Assembly: GCF_002162835.1 (NCBI RefSeq)
Contig: NZ_MAAX01000124.1
Location: forward strand, 1-48,115
Direction: 5' to 3'
Length of the DNA: 48,115 nt
DNA from: Nonlabens dokdonensis
GTDB taxonomy: Bacteria > Bacteroidota > Bacteroidia > Flavobacteriales > Flavobacteriaceae
Below the pieces are notes generated by a model. The model had not been told where the DNA came from. It saw only the letters and a program-made list of their open reading frames with translations, and ran no database searches. The position numbers and the translations under genes are program-made. Positions 3,359-45,038 of this stretch are shown in pieces. The number at the start of each line of letters is the position of its first letter. Positions within the stretch are counted from its first letter, which is position 1.

Positions 3359-5548
3359 TTATAGCTCTAGGTAGAATGTAAATTTTAAAGCGAGGTTGTC
3401 TTCAAAATCAGGTAAAGTGTAAGCACCATATCGGTAACTAGCACTTAAACCAAAACCAAAAATTAACTTATTGAGCTCAAAACCACTTTCTAGATATCCT
3501 TTCTCTAGGGTGTTTATAGTTACATTTTGATGTCTTTCTATGTTATCTATATCGCCCCAAGCAATTTTAGAAACTAGCACAAGTTCTGGCTTTAAAAATG
3601 AAAAAATATCAAAAGGAGCAAATTTATGACGCACCTGCCCGATCATGATTTTATCAGAGAAGAATTCATTAAAATACATGGTTTCAAAACTGCGTCGCCC
3701 AGCCACTGAGAACCTTTGTAATACCTCATCTTTATTAGGTGCATTAGGGTAAGCATGAAAAAGGTGCGTTAATGGCACTTCTCCAGTGCTGTAATGTCCT
3801 TCTACAAGAAATTCTGTAAAAGAATTATCTGGTCGTTTTATAGCATACTCTGCTTTAGCCGAAAGTTTGAAGTAATTAAAGTTACTTTCTGCCAGACCTC
3901 TTATTCCTTGTGTTACTTGACCACTTAAAATAGGATACCCACGTGATATTTCTTGATAGCCTTTAGGTGTGCGCATAAAACTACTTAAAGGGCTCCATCG
4001 CGCGCCTAGAGCAACTTCTGCAAGAACATAATCAGAGAACACCTCACCTTCCTCAGGAATAAATTGATAACTAGTAGTTTGAGAAATCCGCTTTCGCGAA
4101 AGCGAGACCTCACTAATTACAGATGGAAATAAGCGCTGCTGCAGGCTCATCCCATATTGATTATATAAATAGAAGGTAGGTATATTAATTAATCGAGGCT
4201 CAAATAAAGAGTACACGCGAGCATCAGTAAGAAAACTTTCTGCAGCAAATTCTGTAATATCATCTTGCTTATAAATATTTAACCAGGTATTCTTTTCTTT
4301 ATTTAATCGATAACCGATCCCGATTTTATGCTTAAAAACTGCATCTTTGGTCCCGTAAGCTAGATAACCATTAATTCTAAAGTTTTCACTCAACTTCTCA
4401 TTTGTCTGACCACCCATTCCTACTCTAAAAGCCTCGTAATCATTAAACTTAACAAGATATTTCAAATCTATATCTACAAAACCCACAGGGAAGTAACCTA
4501 GTTTAAATTTATCAATAGTCTCTAGATTACGTGTAATTTTACTGGCAGCGACAATACTATCCAGATCCATGAATCTTGCCAGTTCTGTAGTAGAAAAAGC
4601 ATCGTCGCCGCGGTATTTATCCCAGTAAGCTTCTTTTTGAGTTAATGCGCTGTCTTGAATCTCAATGGTTAATCCTTTCCTGCCGTAGTCAATTTCTTTA
4701 TTAGTCTTAAAGTTTGCATTTATGGCCTCAATAATTAAATAAAGCTCTTCTGCAGCTTTATCATCATCATTCACTTTTTTCTCAATACCGACTTCTAACC
4801 TACCACCAAAAAGCTCTAATTCTTTCCTAGTTTTTTCTTGACGTACATATAGTTTTCTAGAACTATTATACCACAAAGCAGTCTGGTTATCATATGTAAA
4901 ATCATGATAAGCTTTTATATTCAGGTCTCCAGACTTCTCAAATACTGCCCTAGCAACAGCATAATTTTCTTGATCTATAAATAAACTCCCTAAAAAAAGT
5001 ACCTTATTATCATTTTTAGGTAAAAAATTTACTTTGAACACCTTTCTACCAGAAATGATAGAATCCTTTACAATCTCAAAATCGTAATAGGATAGAGCCT
5101 TTTTATTTAAAGGACTTATGTATTCTTGATCAAAAATGATATATCTAGTATCATAAACATTTTCTGACTGAAAATTAATATTATAAATAGGATACACCAG
5201 TTCTTCAAATCCTGGCATATTTGCCCCTGTAATGATCTCCTTATAACCTTCTTTCTGATTGTAGATATGTACAGATGTTTTCTCTGCAAAAAAGACTCCA
5301 GTCTTTTTGAGTGTTTTACGTAATTCTGTTTTTTTATAACCAGGTCCAGTAAGCGCCTCTGGATCTCCAGACACTTTTAAATTCTCATAAGCATCATATT
5401 TAAAGGACTCTAAGACAACAGTAGGATCATTAACTGTAGTCTTTTCCAAAACGTTCTGGATCAAGTGCTGAGCTTCTGGCATATTCTGACCTTGTGCGAT
5501 AGTAATCACAAAAAGTAAAAATGGAAAAACACAATTTAAAATTTTCAT
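3359..5548 (-). CDS. DUF5686-like outer-membrane protein
   Basis: Signal peptide MKILNCVFPFLLFVITIAQG, long beta-rich C-terminus ending in aromatic FTFYLEL; resembles the paralog at 18234..20828. Confidence 0.7.
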   Translation of the reverse strand: MKILNCVFPFLLFVITIAQGQNMPEAQHLIQNVLEKTTVNDPTVVLESFKYDAYENLKVSGDPEALTGPGYKKTELRKTLKKTGVFFAEKTSVHIYNQKEGYKEIITGANMPGFEELVYPIYNINFQSENVYDTRYIIFDQEYISPLNKKALSYYDFEIVKDSIISGRKVFKVNFLPKNDNKVLFLGSLFIDQENYAVARAVFEKSGDLNIKAYHDFTYDNQTALWYNSSRKLYVRQEKTRKELELFGGRLEVGIEKKVNDDDKAAEELYLIIEAINANFKTNKEIDYGRKGLTIEIQDSALTQKEAYWDKYRGDDAFSTTELARFMDLDSIVAASKITRNLETIDKFKLGYFPVGFVDIDLKYLVKFNDYEAFRVGMGGQTNEKLSENFRINGYLAYGTKDAVFKHKIGIGYRLNKEKNTWLNIYKQDDITEFAAESFLTDARVYSLFEPRLINIPTFYLYNQYGMSLQQRLFPSVISEVSLSRKRISQTTSYQFIPEEGEVFSDYVLAEVALGARWSPLSSFMRTPKGYQEISRGYPILSGQVTQGIRGLAESNFNYFKLSAKAEYAIKRPDNSFTEFLVEGHYSTGEVPLTHLFHAYPNAPNKDEVLQRFSVAGRRSFETMYFNEFFSDKIMIGQVRHKFAPFDIFSFLKPELVLVSKIAWGDIDNIERHQNVTINTLEKGYLESGFELNKLIFGFGLSASYRYGAYTLPDFEDNLALKFTFYLEL
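4089..4104. repeat. palindrome CGCTTTCGCGAAAGCG copy 2 (inside CDS, encodes LSRKR)
   Basis: Exact 16-bp match; protein reads EVSLSRKRISQ. Confidence 0.97.
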
Positions 5549-7047: not shown

Positions 7048-7063
7048 CGCTTTCGCGAAAGCG
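7048..7063. repeat. palindrome CGCTTTCGCGAAAGCG copy 3
   Basis: Exact 16-bp match, intergenic between pyrH and the DUF3109 gene. Confidence 0.97.
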
Positions 7064-12093: not shown

Positions 12094-12109
12094 CGCTTTC
12101 GCGAAAGCG
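12094..12109. repeat. palindrome CGCTTTCGCGAAAGCG copy 4
   Basis: Exact 16-bp match, intergenic, just downstream of the nrdA terminator. Confidence 0.97.
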
Positions 12110-15599: not shown

Positions 15600-15615
15600 C
15601 GCTTTCGCGAAAGCG
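15600..15615. repeat. palindrome CGCTTTCGCGAAAGCG copy 5
   Basis: Exact match within the extended form TGATCT-palindrome-GGAA. Confidence 0.97.
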
Positions 15616-18233: not shown

Positions 18234-20828
18234 CTAAAAAGAAAATCCAAAACTACCTGTAATCGCCATAGAACGTGCGTCAGGCAAGAAGTTATAGCCA
18301 CCTCTAAAACTGACGTCTAGTCTTAGAATTTTAAAAATGTTCCCTATTCCTGCACTGTATTCCCAAAATACATCTTCTGGAGCTAGGTAATTAATGTTTC
18401 CTGCATTAAGCGCAATGTTCTCATCGCTTATTTTTCCATACACCGCACGTATTCCTACAAGCTCTCTCAGGTTAAGATCACGCAATCCTGGAATTCTAGA
18501 AAATATACGACCGTTGAAATTGTGATTTAAGTGCATGGTAACATATTCATCAGTTACAAATTCGTAGAAATTGAGCGTATTAAAAGCACCTGTTAAATTA
18601 AAGTAAGTCTGGTTACCAGGGACAACATTTAATAAAGCTAGTGGTACCTCTCCAAAGGTTTTACCTGCTTCCACTCTTGCCGTTAATCTCCCAAAAGGAC
18701 CTAACTGAAATGGATGACTGTAGTAAAACTGGACTTTATCAAAATTAAAATCACTTTCTAAAAAACCGTCAAAACCCTTAGTATAACTAGCATAAAGAAT
18801 AGGATATTCACCACTGTTAATAAGCGTTCTATCCACTCCATAGTTAGACGTTTTACGGCCTGGAGTGTAAGTCATAGTTAAAGAAGCATCTGCTTGTCTT
18901 GTTTCTGTAGCGATACCATTAGGTGAATCAGGATCAAAGTAATCCAAACTAAAAATATCTGGTGCACCACTTTTTATAGTTCGATAACTGGTACCTAATC
19001 TAAATTCTAGATTGTATTTGGGTTCAAAACTAATTCCTAAAGTTGTCAAATTAATACTAGAAAGACTATTATTATTACCTGCAGTTATTAGTGAACTTGA
19101 AGCGAGACTACGTCCCAAAACATCATTTGTATTGGTCAAGCTAGCACCTAATTGCTCTATATCTCTGCGGTTCCCACCAGATATGGTAAGCCTACTTTTC
19201 TTATCAATCAACCATTTACCAGCTAGACCATATTTAAACTGATCATCTTTGAAACCATAAGCTAGATAACCTTCCAGTCGCCATAAATCATTTGAAGTAA
19301 AAAAGGTTCTTCCACCTAACCTCACTCGCATACCTTCTACCTGATTAAATCCTAAAAGTCCGAAAACAGGCCCTATATCAAAGTTATCTACCTCATAATA
19401 TCCTGAGGCAAGAATGGTTCCTATGTTATAAAGACGCTTGAACTTTTTATTAGTTTTGAGCGTGTCCAGCATGGTATAAATTTGCTTTTCGTCTTTATTT
19501 AATTTTTCTAATCGATTCTCGTCCCAATATTCCTCACTGCGATCATAAATCAAAGGATCATAATCATTTACCCTACGTTTGTAAAAATCGTCTTCTTTTT
19601 TAATGTCAAATTGATAGTTATCAAACAAGGTGGTACGCTTACCGTAAATACCTTTAGACTTCTCTTTCTTATTAAGTGCAAAATCACTCATGAAGTAATC
19701 TCTGGTAATCAAGAAAAGGCTGTCGTTTAGTACATCATATTCCTGCTCGATGTAAATTTCTTTTACCCAATTCACATTAGCACTTTTAGTTGCTTGTAAA
19801 TTAATTTCTTTGATGGCATAAGAATCGGTAGCCACCCAAAAGTCTCCTTTAAAAGTAAGCTCTCCTTTGCGACGCGGATAATAAATAATGTTATAAGCCT
19901 CTACTCCATCAACCATAGCCGTATCTCTAAGCACATAATTATAGGTATCTATTCCAGCTTTACCTACCGGACTCGTAAAACTCTTATCAAAAAACTTTAA
20001 GTAACGCTCGTACACGTCAATATCTGCATAGAGGTCTTTTACAAAGGCTATAATGGTTTGATTATCAGAAAAACCAGAGTTTTTATTTGCTTTAACTACT
20101 TCTTTCTCTTTATTTAATTCATTATCTCCATATACTGAAGCCAGCGATTCATTAATAAAAATGGGTAGATAGGTTTTTCCGGTCACTCGACTGGTGTCAG
20201 CATAATTAAAAATGAATTCCATTCCATTGAATAGCTTTGAGTTGATCATAGCACTATCAATCGTATTCATATCAAATTCTAGCTTCTCATACTTATCGTA
20301 CTGGTATTGTTTAAATTGAGACAGTCCATTTTTACGTCTATTTTCCCAGACTTTGCGTAAGATGTCAATGGCTGGGTTGTTTTTTTTAGAAGTTTTTCCA
20401 GTATATACCACTACAGCATCCAGCTCAGCAGTGTCAGTTTCAAGAGTTATTTTTAAATCTGTAGAAACTCTTGATTCTAAAGTAATGGTTTGCGTTTTAT
20501 ATCCTACAAAGGAGAACTCCACCGTTTTATAGGTTTGGTCAGATTGCAGGTAGAATCTTCCATTATCGTTAGAGATTGTTCCTTCACTAGAGTTAGGAAA
20601 AATAACATTAGCAAATGGTACTGGATCACCAAATTCGTCATAGATAACACCACCTACTTTGGTTTGAGCAACTACAGTAGCGGTTACTAACAAGAATCCT
20701 AATAGTAACACATGTTTTGAGAATAGACTGTAGGAGTCTCGCTTTCGCGAAAGCGGTATACTTACCTGTCCTTTATGCATGCAACTAACTTTTATTATAC
20801 CGGATTTTATATATTTTTTCATAAGCAA
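18234..20828 (-). CDS. DUF5686 / carboxypeptidase-like regulatory domain outer-membrane protein
   Basis: TKVGGVIYDEFGDPVPFANVIFPNSSEGTISNDNGRFYL (CarbopepD_reg-like) then long beta-rich domain. Confidence 0.8.
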   Translation of the reverse strand: MLMKKYIKSGIIKVSCMHKGQVSIPLSRKRDSYSLFSKHVLLLGFLLVTATVVAQTKVGGVIYDEFGDPVPFANVIFPNSSEGTISNDNGRFYLQSDQTYKTVEFSFVGYKTQTITLESRVSTDLKITLETDTAELDAVVVYTGKTSKKNNPAIDILRKVWENRRKNGLSQFKQYQYDKYEKLEFDMNTIDSAMINSKLFNGMEFIFNYADTSRVTGKTYLPIFINESLASVYGDNELNKEKEVVKANKNSGFSDNQTIIAFVKDLYADIDVYERYLKFFDKSFTSPVGKAGIDTYNYVLRDTAMVDGVEAYNIIYYPRRKGELTFKGDFWVATDSYAIKEINLQATKSANVNWVKEIYIEQEYDVLNDSLFLITRDYFMSDFALNKKEKSKGIYGKRTTLFDNYQFDIKKEDDFYKRRVNDYDPLIYDRSEEYWDENRLEKLNKDEKQIYTMLDTLKTNKKFKRLYNIGTILASGYYEVDNFDIGPVFGLLGFNQVEGMRVRLGGRTFFTSNDLWRLEGYLAYGFKDDQFKYGLAGKWLIDKKSRLTISGGNRRDIEQLGASLTNTNDVLGRSLASSSLITAGNNNSLSSINLTTLGISFEPKYNLEFRLGTSYRTIKSGAPDIFSLDYFDPDSPNGIATETRQADASLTMTYTPGRKTSNYGVDRTLINSGEYPILYASYTKGFDGFLESDFNFDKVQFYYSHPFQLGPFGRLTARVEAGKTFGEVPLALLNVVPGNQTYFNLTGAFNTLNFYEFVTDEYVTMHLNHNFNGRIFSRIPGLRDLNLRELVGIRAVYGKISDENIALNAGNINYLAPEDVFWEYSAGIGNIFKILRLDVSFRGGYNFLPDARSMAITGSFGFSF
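20740..20755. repeat. palindrome CGCTTTCGCGAAAGCG copy 6 (inside CDS, encodes LSRKR near N-terminus)
   Basis: Exact match; protein reads SIPLSRKRDSYSLFSKHVLLLGFLLVTATVVAQ. Confidence 0.97.
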
Positions 20829-22997: not shown

Positions 22998-23013
22998 CGC
23001 TTTCGCGAAAGCG
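22998..23013. repeat. palindrome CGCTTTCGCGAAAGCG copy 7
   Basis: Exact match between etfB and etfA. Confidence 0.97.
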
Positions 23014-27075: not shown

Positions 27076-27091
27076 CGCTTTCGCGAAAGCG
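27076..27091. repeat. palindrome CGCTTTCGCGAAAGCG copy 8
   Basis: Exact match, 25 nt upstream of the thyA ATG. Confidence 0.97.
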
Positions 27092-28715: not shown

Positions 28716-28731
28716 CGCTTTCGCGAAAGCG
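28716..28731. repeat. palindrome CGCTTTCGCGAAAGCG copy 9
   Basis: Exact match, about 30 nt upstream of the egtB start. Confidence 0.97.
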
Positions 28732-31903: not shown

Positions 31904-31919
31904 CGCTTTCGCGAAAGCG
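31904..31919. repeat. palindrome CGCTTTCGCGAAAGCG copy 10
   Basis: Exact match within the extended form TGATCT-palindrome-GGAA. Confidence 0.97.
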
Positions 31920-35342: not shown

Positions 35343-35965
35343 CCGTAAATTCTATAAATTGTAAATAGAGCGATGAATAAAGTAAGACCTGCCAAAACAT
35401 AATTTATTTTGCGAGCAAATGTGTTGCTATCAAAAGCAAATTTCTTTATATACTTTATATAGGCAAGCAACATCAAAAATGTTCCTATAGCAGCTCCTAA
35501 GATAAATAAATGAGCCATGGGATAGGTGAACTTGAATAAACCTCGACTTGCTAAAAATGAGCTGAAGCCTATATAAAAAGGAATAGGAAAAATATTGAGC
35601 ACTGATAAAATAATCCCTTGACCGAAAAGCTTAATAGGTGATTTATCAATTTTTTTAACCTCAGGACTACCACTATCAAGCATAGCTCGTATAAAGAAAA
35701 ATATAGATAACCCAATAAATGCGATAACCGCAAATTGCTCCAGCATCAAGAGCGTGTCAGGGTTATCGTTAAGTAATTTTGAAAAAAAAACACCGATATA
35801 AACCTGGCCTATAACAACGATAGAAGCTCCTAGCGCAAACATTACCGCCGCATTTCTAGTTTGCTTAACACTTATCTTAGCAGCTGTTAGGTTAAGTAAT
35901 CCAGGTGGTATAACGCCTATAAAACCTATGGTAAGACCAAATAATAAGTGCAAAACTATACTCAT
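35339..35965 (-). CDS. LysE-family amino acid exporter-like protein
   Basis: GLTIGFIGVIPPGLLNLTAAKISVKQTRNAAVMFALGAS; 6 hydrophobic segments. Confidence 0.8.
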   Translation of the reverse strand: MSIVLHLLFGLTIGFIGVIPPGLLNLTAAKISVKQTRNAAVMFALGASIVVIGQVYIGVFFSKLLNDNPDTLLMLEQFAVIAFIGLSIFFFIRAMLDSGSPEVKKIDKSPIKLFGQGIILSVLNIFPIPFYIGFSSFLASRGLFKFTYPMAHLFILGAAIGTFLMLLAYIKYIKKFAFDSNTFARKINYVLAGLTLFIALFTIYRIYG

Positions 35966-36633
35966 TATTTAAGCCTAAATTTTATATAAGTTATTGCCTT
36001 ATCAACTTCTAGATATTGCTTTTCATAAAATGTTTGAGTTCCTGTTACTTCTTCAGGAGACTCGGTATTTGAGTAAATATCGTGATGCGCATATAATATC
36101 TCCTCACCTCTAGCTTGTAACAATCCTAAGGTATAACCATGCATGAACTCAGAATCGGTTTTTAAATTAACAACACCATCAGGCTGTAAAATCGACTTAT
36201 ACTTTGCAAGAAAGTCAGGATTTGTCATTCTGTGTTTAGTGCGCTTGTATTTAATTTGTGGATCTGGAAAAGTGATCCATATTTCTTGTATTTCCGCTTT
36301 CGCGAAAGCGCGATCTACTAACTCAATCTGGGTTCTCATAAAGGCCACGTTATCTAGACCTTCTTCTATTGCTGTTTTTGCACCACGCCAGAAACGCGCT
36401 CCTTTGATATCTATACCTATAAAATTACGTTCCGGATACTTGCGTGCCAATGCCACTGTATATTCTCCTTTACCACATCCTAATTCTAATGTAATAGGGT
36501 TATCATTTCCAAAAAAAGTATTCCACTTTCCTTGATATTTAAAGTCATTTAAAACCTCTTCCCTAGTAGGCTGAATGACATTTTTAAAGGTTTCATTTTC
36601 GTGAAATCGTTTGAGTTTATTTTTACTTCCCAA
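35965..36633 (-). CDS. trmB: tRNA (guanosine(46)-N7)-methyltransferase
   Basis: LELGCGKGEYTVALARKYPERNFIGIDIKGARFWRG...IWITFPDPQIKYKRTKHRMTN. Confidence 0.95.
   Translation of the reverse strand: MGSKNKLKRFHENETFKNVIQPTREEVLNDFKYQGKWNTFFGNDNPITLELGCGKGEYTVALARKYPERNFIGIDIKGARFWRGAKTAIEEGLDNVAFMRTQIELVDRAFAKAEIQEIWITFPDPQIKYKRTKHRMTNPDFLAKYKSILQPDGVVNLKTDSEFMHGYTLGLLQARGEEILYAHHDIYSNTESPEEVTGTQTFYEKQYLEVDKAITYIKFRLK
36295..36310. repeat. palindrome CGCTTTCGCGAAAGCG copy 11 (inside trmB, encodes AFAKA)
   Basis: Exact match; protein reads VDRAFAKAEIQEIWITFPDP. Confidence 0.97.
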
Positions 36634-39608: not shown

Positions 39609-39624
39609 CGCTTTCGCGAAAGCG
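39609..39624. repeat. palindrome CGCTTTCGCGAAAGCG copy 12
   Basis: Exact match within the extended form TGATCT-palindrome-GGAA. Confidence 0.97.
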
Positions 39625-44030: not shown

Positions 44031-45038
44031 ATGATTTTAATCACAGGTGGTACAGGATTAGTAGGTGGACATTTGTTATACCGCTTTCGCGAAAGCGGAA
44101 AAAATATCATAGCCACGTATCGTAATATAGACGCTATTGAGAAAACGCGTGAGATTTTTGAATCTTATGAAGTAGGAGCGAGCTCTATGGTAGACGGTTT
44201 TCAATGGATGGAAGCGGACATTCTTGAAATTCCTAGTCTAGAGAAAGTCATGAAAAATGTGAAATACGTATATCATTGTGCTGCAGCAATTGACAATTCA
44301 TCTTTTGAAGAGCTTAAAAGTATCAACATGCGTGGTACTGAAAATGTTATTAATGTAGCTCTACACTATGGAATTAAAAAATTATGCTATGTAAGTAGTA
44401 TCGCTGCCCTAGGAGACCCAATAGGAGCAAGACTAATAAACGAAGAGGACTTTTTTAATCTTGATGGTTTAAATACGGACTATGCGATTACAAAATTTGG
44501 TGCAGAAATGGAAGCCTGGCGCGCCACTCAAGAAGAACTTGATATTATAATCGTAAATCCAGGTATCGTGCTAGGAGAGGGAAACTGGAAAAATGGTTCT
44601 GGTCAATTTTTCAGTAAAACCGCTACGGGAAATAGATTTTATACTAAAGGTTCAAGTGGTTTTATAGACGTGAGAGATGTTACTTCATTAATGGTAAGGT
44701 TAATGGAAAGCTCATCACATAACGAACGTTTTATTTTGATTTCTGAAAATAGAAGTTACAAATCTATACTTGATAAAATAGCACTAGCCTTAGAAAAAAA
44801 GAAACCTAATATATATTTGAGTAAGAGTCTTTTACTTATGACCTCCTATTTTCTCAAAGTATTAAATATTTTAGGTTTTAAAAGAACATTAAGCACTGCA
44901 AAAGTAGAGTCACTCACCTCAACGACTAATTATTCTAATGATAAAATTATAGAAGCAACTGATTTTAAATTCACACCTATTGATGAGACTATTTTAAGGA
45001 TAGCCACTTGTTATTTAAACAAATCTAATCTAGAATAA
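44031..45038 (+). CDS. NAD-dependent epimerase/dehydratase family protein
   Basis: MILITGGTGLVGGHLLYRF...YVYHCAAAID...YAITKFGAEMEAWRA (YxxxK). Confidence 0.9.
   Translation: MILITGGTGLVGGHLLYRFRESGKNIIATYRNIDAIEKTREIFESYEVGASSMVDGFQWMEADILEIPSLEKVMKNVKYVYHCAAAIDNSSFEELKSINMRGTENVINVALHYGIKKLCYVSSIAALGDPIGARLINEEDFFNLDGLNTDYAITKFGAEMEAWRATQEELDIIIVNPGIVLGEGNWKNGSGQFFSKTATGNRFYTKGSSGFIDVRDVTSLMVRLMESSSHNERFILISENRSYKSILDKIALALEKKKPNIYLSKSLLLMTSYFLKVLNILGFKRTLSTAKVESLTSTTNYSNDKIIEATDFKFTPIDETILRIATCYLNKSNLE
44082..44097. repeat. palindrome CGCTTTCGCGAAAGCG copy 13 (inside CDS, encodes RFRES)
   Basis: Exact match; protein reads LLYRFRESGKNI. Confidence 0.97.

Follow-up and report, generated by a model that had tools for sequence, protein, structure and literature searches.

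A 16-bp palindrome in trmB of Nonlabens dokdonensis belongs to an evenly spaced, conserved motif family and is a possible self-DNA recognition site

Results

The palindrome within trmB and its other copies in the window

The window, i.e., the whole stretch of 48,115 nucleotides of Nonlabens dokdonensis DNA analyzed here, contains a trmB ORF at positions 35965-36633 of the minus strand. Its translation and orthologs indicated a tRNA (guanine-N7)-methyltransferase of 222 aa with a TTG start, and the best named TrmB matches were from Nonlabens. Within the gene, at exactly positions 36295-36310 of the window sequence, lies the 16-bp palindrome CGCTTTCGCGAAAGCG, which provides the codons for AFAKA, residues 109-113. 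The initial annotation had placed it there, inside a quoted TrmB segment, and the translation of the ORF agreed with this.

Thirteen exact copies of the 16-mer were found in the 48-kb window, where about 5e-6 would be expected at 35.5% G+C, and the core TTTCGCGAAA did not occur in the window outside full 16-mers. Sequence matching located intergenic copies at 859-874, 15600-15615 and 31904-31919, and comparison with genome G004 showed that those at 7048-7063, 12094-12109, 22998-23013 and 28716-28731, also intergenic, are conserved there, as is the intergenic copy at 27076-27091, despite flanks that are only 77% identical. One more intergenic copy, at 39609-39624, has one mismatch in G009 and G010. 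The remaining copies fall within called ORFs: at 4089-4104, inside the minus-strand ORF 3359-5548; at 20740-20755, near the start of the minus-strand ORF 18234-20828, whose start codon is uncertain, and conserved in G004; and at 44082-44097, near the start of the plus-strand ORF 44031-45038, exact in 7/7 relatives compared with flank identity down to 71%.

Distribution among genomes

The whole genome contained 602 exact copies, and the reversed control pattern none. All 23 Nonlabens genomes carried the motif, with 180-737 copies each, establishing it as a family. When 400 Flavobacteriaceae genomes were analyzed, hundreds of copies were present in only three genera (Nonlabens, g192 and g208); the others had 0-13, and most of them had no copies. 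With up to one mismatch allowed, the counts were 510-863 in three Dokdonia genomes, 879 in g208 and 377 in g192. Odd empty-site sequences in G009 and G010 raised the possibility of another iterated motif or a dialect core there, which k-mer counts ruled out. No paper containing the 16-mer was found among openly licensed papers, and their titles and abstracts yielded no relevant literature on HIP in Flavobacteria or on palindromes in Nonlabens or Dokdonia.

The scattered low-copy hits in other genera (L237-L245) lay, where examined, in metal-resistance islands encoding an AcrB-type RND pump, an outer-membrane efflux protein, a multicopper oxidase, a heavy-metal P-type ATPase and an ArsP-like permease. 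These motif-bearing islands share 75-97% identity between genera, which makes a motif-bearing genus their probable source. Separately, a stretch of G001:C4 at about 298-353 kb is nearly site-free and holds one of the rare strong PilB/T2SSE-type ATPase genes (336408-337520); this stretch may be an island.

Substitution origin of the trmB site

In an alignment of 102 TrmB orthologs, none had an indel in residues 97-126. Site-bearing orthologs read D-x-AFAKA-E, and motif-less orthologs of equal length read DYAFAENEV, DFIFAENEV, EYAFGKNEI and similar. It had been proposed from the sequence alone that the segment kept its length and that the 16-mer replaced native sequence, which motif-less orthologs shorter by at least five residues would have refuted; no such orthologs were present among the 102, and the proposal held. 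The AFAKA residues had a mean entropy of 1.33, compared with 0.64 for the whole protein, and the replaced residues ranked 7, 18, 24 and 32 of 222, among the most variable of TrmB, while the invariant F and E were retained in the site-bearing proteins. The orthologous 16-mers of outgroups averaged 8.8 mismatches to the motif versus 12.1 for same-phase trmB 16-mers. On this comparative evidence, the trmB site arose by point substitutions in a stretch that was already near the motif, and these fell on its most variable residues. This origin fits a selected motif, in agreement with the preference of the initial annotation for a selected or converted motif (HIP1- or DUS-like) over a transposing element. 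Conversion, i.e., copying from another site, is unnecessary to explain this copy, though it is not formally excluded.

Among 22 Nonlabens trmB genes, 14 contained the exact 16-mer, two had one mismatch and six lacked the site. The trmB genes of three Dokdonia genomes had one mismatch each in the same codons, and those of g192 and g208 had the exact motif in identical codons. In the Dokdonia, g208 and g192 loci L045, L051, L081, L259 and L262, the same trmB codons carry the site and TrmB does not group with that of Nonlabens. A TrmB tree built without the segment separated Nonlabens from Dokdonia and g208, a topology that requires several gains or losses of the site; the position in common may be ancestral or may reflect parallel gain or transfer. 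Another site within the 3.7-kb trmB locus was present in 0/16 genomes with the trmB site versus 4/6 without it (p ~0.002, phylogeny ignored).

Conservation, spacing and placement of the sites

Comparison of sites across species demonstrated strong conservation: 172 of 244 pairs (70%) were identical at 16/16 bases, where flanks 74% identical gave a neutral expectation of 2.7%; these pairs share history and are not independent. The numbers of sites with 0, 1, 2 and 3 mismatches were 266, 56, 20 and 9, versus 0, 0, 0 and 2 in a Markov control, and the variants clustered at the outermost base and one inner base. In G005:C1, a region at about 1.95-2.23 Mb, near the maximum of the cumulative GC skew, had unusually degenerate sites (12 exact and 17 near, versus 243 and 56 elsewhere); this region was chosen after the data were seen.

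The sites were evenly spaced. In 219 gaps from 1.22 Mb of G005 and the window, the coefficient of variation (CV) was 0.51, compared with 0.88 under uniform placing; no gap was shorter than 500 bp, where 27 were expected, and 25 were shorter than 2 kb, where 92 were expected. The pair-correlation ratio ran through 0.0, 0.1, 0.21, 0.35 and 0.5 up to 2 kb and exceeded 1 beyond. Even spacing was also observed in G000, G004, G006, G014, G017 and g208 (CV 0.43-0.63 versus 0.83-0.92), some of these samples being small. All species sampled showed mutual exclusion of sites at distances of less than about 2 kb. The same test applied to Chi in 200 kb of E. coli gave a CV of 0.86 versus a null of 0.90, i.e., Chi was not evenly spaced.

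The motif occurred once per 4-5 kb, about 0.2 per kb, with no significant ori-ter axis and a uniform density along G005. Intergenic DNA held 39% of the sites versus 9.6% of the bases, and ~60% of the sites lay within ORFs. The ORFs came from simple greedy calling and sites piled up in their first tenth, so the intergenic share is probably underestimated. The intergenic density was 0.97, 0.89 and 0.97 per kb in divergent, tandem and convergent gaps, respectively, and this equality across gene orientations indicates that the sites have no tie to transcription.

Anatomy of the element

The core is a perfect 16-bp palindrome, and the flanks are symmetric too. On each 5' flank, C was almost missing at -3 to -11, A was favored at -4, and T was favored at -3, -6, -9 and -12, with frequencies of 0.87, 0.56, 0.75 and 0.64 in the genome under study. 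Coding and intergenic sites alike showed this pattern, as did every Nonlabens and g208 sample. The periodicity of T by three bases was also seen outside any reading frame (293/416 versus 272/728 in the same genome). Bases -1 and -2 were species-specific, being pyrimidines in G000 and G004, TT in G005 and TA in g208. Judging from these profiles, the true element extends beyond the 16-bp core: it is symmetric and ~40 bp long, with a rigid core and weaker flanks; in trmB, the core with 12-bp flanks would span approximately 36283-36322, an extent taken from profiles over many sites. Left and right flanks showed no stem covariation except for the two bases adjoining the core, which indicates dyad symmetry of the DNA rather than pairing in RNA; an extended RNA hairpin was dismissed for this reason.

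Sites in phages

No site within three mismatches occurred in the 35.7 kb of P12024S, a cultured Nonlabens phage with genes for ERF and YqaJ recombination proteins. Some tailed environmental phages of unknown host (IMG/VR contigs L118-L158, e.g., L138, L155 and L132) carried several sites at a density near that of the host genomes, and these sites were retained even between phages with an identity of only 67-72%. The terminase of one motif-bearing phage related it to Peternella, a Mu-like Winogradskyella phage that is itself site-free. This pattern is compatible with a motif acquired by chromosome-resident DNA and also with the Chi pattern of E. coli phages: phages carrying the host Chi at host density are known, and those with their own recombinase and a RecBCD inhibitor avoid Chi (PMC3784561). 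For a DUS-like function, the motif-bearing tailed phages count against and the site-free P12024S counts in favor.

Discussion

Our preferred reading, which we hold tentatively and with substantial doubt, is that the motif is a self-DNA recognition site tied to DNA transfer or recombination, similar to DUS or USS and kept by selection or biased uptake. Both this driver and the existence of a reader protein are inferred, and no function was assayed. In the proposed mechanism, an unidentified, probably dimeric protein would read the symmetric ~40-bp element on DNA fragments, and site-bearing fragments would be preferentially taken up or recombined within the species. One site per fragment would suffice, and a second within about 2 kb would gain nothing and would not be kept; the even spacing suggests such a saturating local benefit, with one site per few kb being enough. 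In trmB, point substitutions made the site out of a stretch matching about 7/16 bases, at residues that the enzyme tolerates. In Neisseria, a single DUS is sufficient, a second one close by brings no gain, and the spacing of DUS matches the length of conversion fragments (PMC2397512). Uptake sequences have been modeled as a gradual point-mutational build-up in permissive places (PMC1939737), and in the Flavobacteriales, competent Riemerella columbina shows a preference for its own DNA, for which no motif has been identified (PMC7965970). We favor a self-DNA motif because of the saturating spacing, the Neisseria parallel and this competence in the wider group.

The hallmarks of DUS and USS were only partly found. 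The mismatch spectrum shows strong over-representation, a tight core and near-matches that fall off by degrees, the gaps satisfy spacing limits with avoidance of close pairs, and a substitution origin in permissive places holds for trmB, the only gene where this was analyzed. Known DUS and USS are non-palindromic and their readers are part of type IV pilus machines; here, the motif is symmetric, and a type IV pilus machine for uptake, judged by its ATPase, is not a general property of the carriers. A strong T2SSE/PilB-type ATPase was detected in 2/10 Nonlabens tested and in 3/3 Dokdonia, and it was absent from G213 and G229. ComEC was present in all tested genomes, equally in motif-free ones, and thus does not discriminate. 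No reader protein was identified, and no report of Nonlabens or Dokdonia transformation was found in the openly licensed literature. The motif is therefore not shown to be a DUS or USS, as it is palindromic and most Nonlabens tested lack the pilus ATPase.

The choice among uptake, Chi-like recombination and chromosome structure rests on the spacing and on analogy. A chromosome-structuring site, bound at intervals of a few kb by a dimeric nucleoid-associated or topology-related protein and selected so that no loop or domain is left without one, seems unlikely to us, without being set aside. It would account for a palindromic element with extended symmetric flanks, for the even spacing, for the uniform density without a clear ori-ter axis and the irrelevance of gene orientation, and it is in line with the site-free cultured phage and the lack of a pilus ATPase in most Nonlabens tested. 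However, this role would not obviously call for a hard exclusion below 1 kb, and ~600 near-perfect 16-bp copies exceed the site numbers known for Noc, SlmA and MatP. Most carriers, like the motif-free genomes, have one copy of the chromosomal ParB, no further Noc-like paralog is shared by the carriers, and no parS or NBS sequence was found in the sampled DNA; a parS/Noc site, which would call for a sequence match there and a dedicated ParB/Noc paralog, was rejected. We consider improbable a Chi-like role, in which the motif would stop degradation by an exonuclease/helicase of the AddAB/RecBCD type and load RecA; the presence of AddAB here was not checked. A palindrome would work from both directions, the C-avoiding, T/G-rich 5' flanks with period 3 would favor RecA, the density of one per 4-5 kb equals that of Chi, and the phage distribution, with the recombinase-encoding P12024S site-free, parallels that of the host Chi. 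On the other hand, known Chi sites are read as single strands and are short and non-palindromic, unlike the 16-bp palindrome, and the evenness of its gaps was not shared by E. coli Chi.

That the motif is kept, like HIP1, through a DNA methyltransferase recognizing an inner sequence such as TCGCGA or CGCG is quite improbable in our judgment. It is indeed a highly iterated palindrome, as HIP1 is, but its recognition reaches well past a methylase site, and TCGCGA outside the motif is little over- or under-represented (o/e 1.12). In the only two methyltransferase families screened, none was common to all carriers: C5 methylases (PF00145) were missing from 6/10 Nonlabens, G213 and one Dokdonia, and N6/N4 methylases (PF01555) from several carriers. 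The initial annotation had named HIP1 and DUS as analogies; we retain the DUS/USS side and not that of HIP1, on account of the even spacing, the one hit per few kb, the preference for permissive places and this lack of a common PF00145 or PF01555 enzyme. A transcription terminator or regulator site is very improbable: intergenic sites often lie just past stop codons (median 34 bp in tandem gaps) and the RNA could form a 6-bp hairpin, but no T-tract follows the sites, a terminator scan called none in the stretch scanned, ~60% of the sites are in ORFs, density is equal whatever the orientation of the flanking genes, and the flanks do not covary beyond the two core-adjacent bases. An intrinsic terminator, i.e., a hairpin with a U-tract at gene ends, was rejected. 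Finally, hundreds of near-identical, often intergenic copies could point to a mobile or REP-like element inserting copies of itself. We find this hardly credible, as it is refuted in trmB by the unchanged length, native flanks surround each site, copies are mutually exclusive at distances below 2 kb, sites are fixed at orthologous places across genera, and the RAYT-type transposase (PF01797) is missing from several carriers (e.g., G001, G005, G006, G008 and G213). REP/BIME or other mobile repeats, with their insertions and linked RAYT, were discarded.

A self-DNA recognition site of this kind could be part of an undescribed Nonlabens/Dokdonia system in which a symmetric ~40-bp element is read by a protein with no relationship to type IV pili. 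Bacteroidota would thereby have their first genome-wide tag for uptake or recombination, common to some resident phages and exported to other genera on metal-resistance islands; we regard this whole reading as possible and rather doubtful. To our knowledge, only two bacterial families offer well-documented cases of genome-wide self motifs. The reason for their existence is debated between safe sex and molecular drive. If the proposal is true, a third, independent case in Bacteroidota would allow this debate to be tested anew: the motif is a palindrome, its exclusion zone of 2 kb has been measured, and orthologs that have a site can be paired with others that lack one. Such a case would further suggest, in abundant marine bacteria, a DNA-binding protein not yet known and possibly a so far unknown route of DNA transfer.

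Comparison with known systems

Among known systems, parS and Noc-binding sites are alike in being 16-bp palindromes with a TTTC...GAAA arm; compared with parS, the arms of the Nonlabens motif are one base nearer the center, its hundreds of copies are chromosome-wide, and carriers have no common Noc-like ParB paralog. HIP1 (GCGATCGC) is a highly iterated palindrome across the genes and gaps of a whole clade, the cyanobacteria. The HIP1 octamer itself is a different sequence from a different phylum, and the Nonlabens motif differs in its 16 bp plus flanks, its even spacing and the absence of a common methylase in the two families tested, and it is about 5 times rarer than HIP1. A link between HIP1 and orphan methyltransferases has been reported (PMC4390886). 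Chi resembles the motif in its one copy per 4-5 kb, its presence in the host and some phages, and its T/G-rich neighborhood, whereas the Nonlabens motif is palindromic, longer and evenly spaced. The DUS of Neisseriaceae and the USS of Pasteurellaceae differ in being asymmetric, 9-12 bp long and present at about 0.9-1 per kb, versus a 16-bp palindrome at about 0.2 per kb here; unlike them, the Nonlabens motif has Bacteroidota hosts, most of its carriers lack the pilus ATPase, transformation has not been demonstrated, and it occurs in some phages. It is with DUS and USS, nevertheless, that it shares hundreds of copies with a near-perfect core and weaker flanks, a bias toward permissive and intergenic places, gain by point mutation, few close pairs and one motif per few kb, scarcity in islands and in a lytic phage, and outer bases that vary by species.
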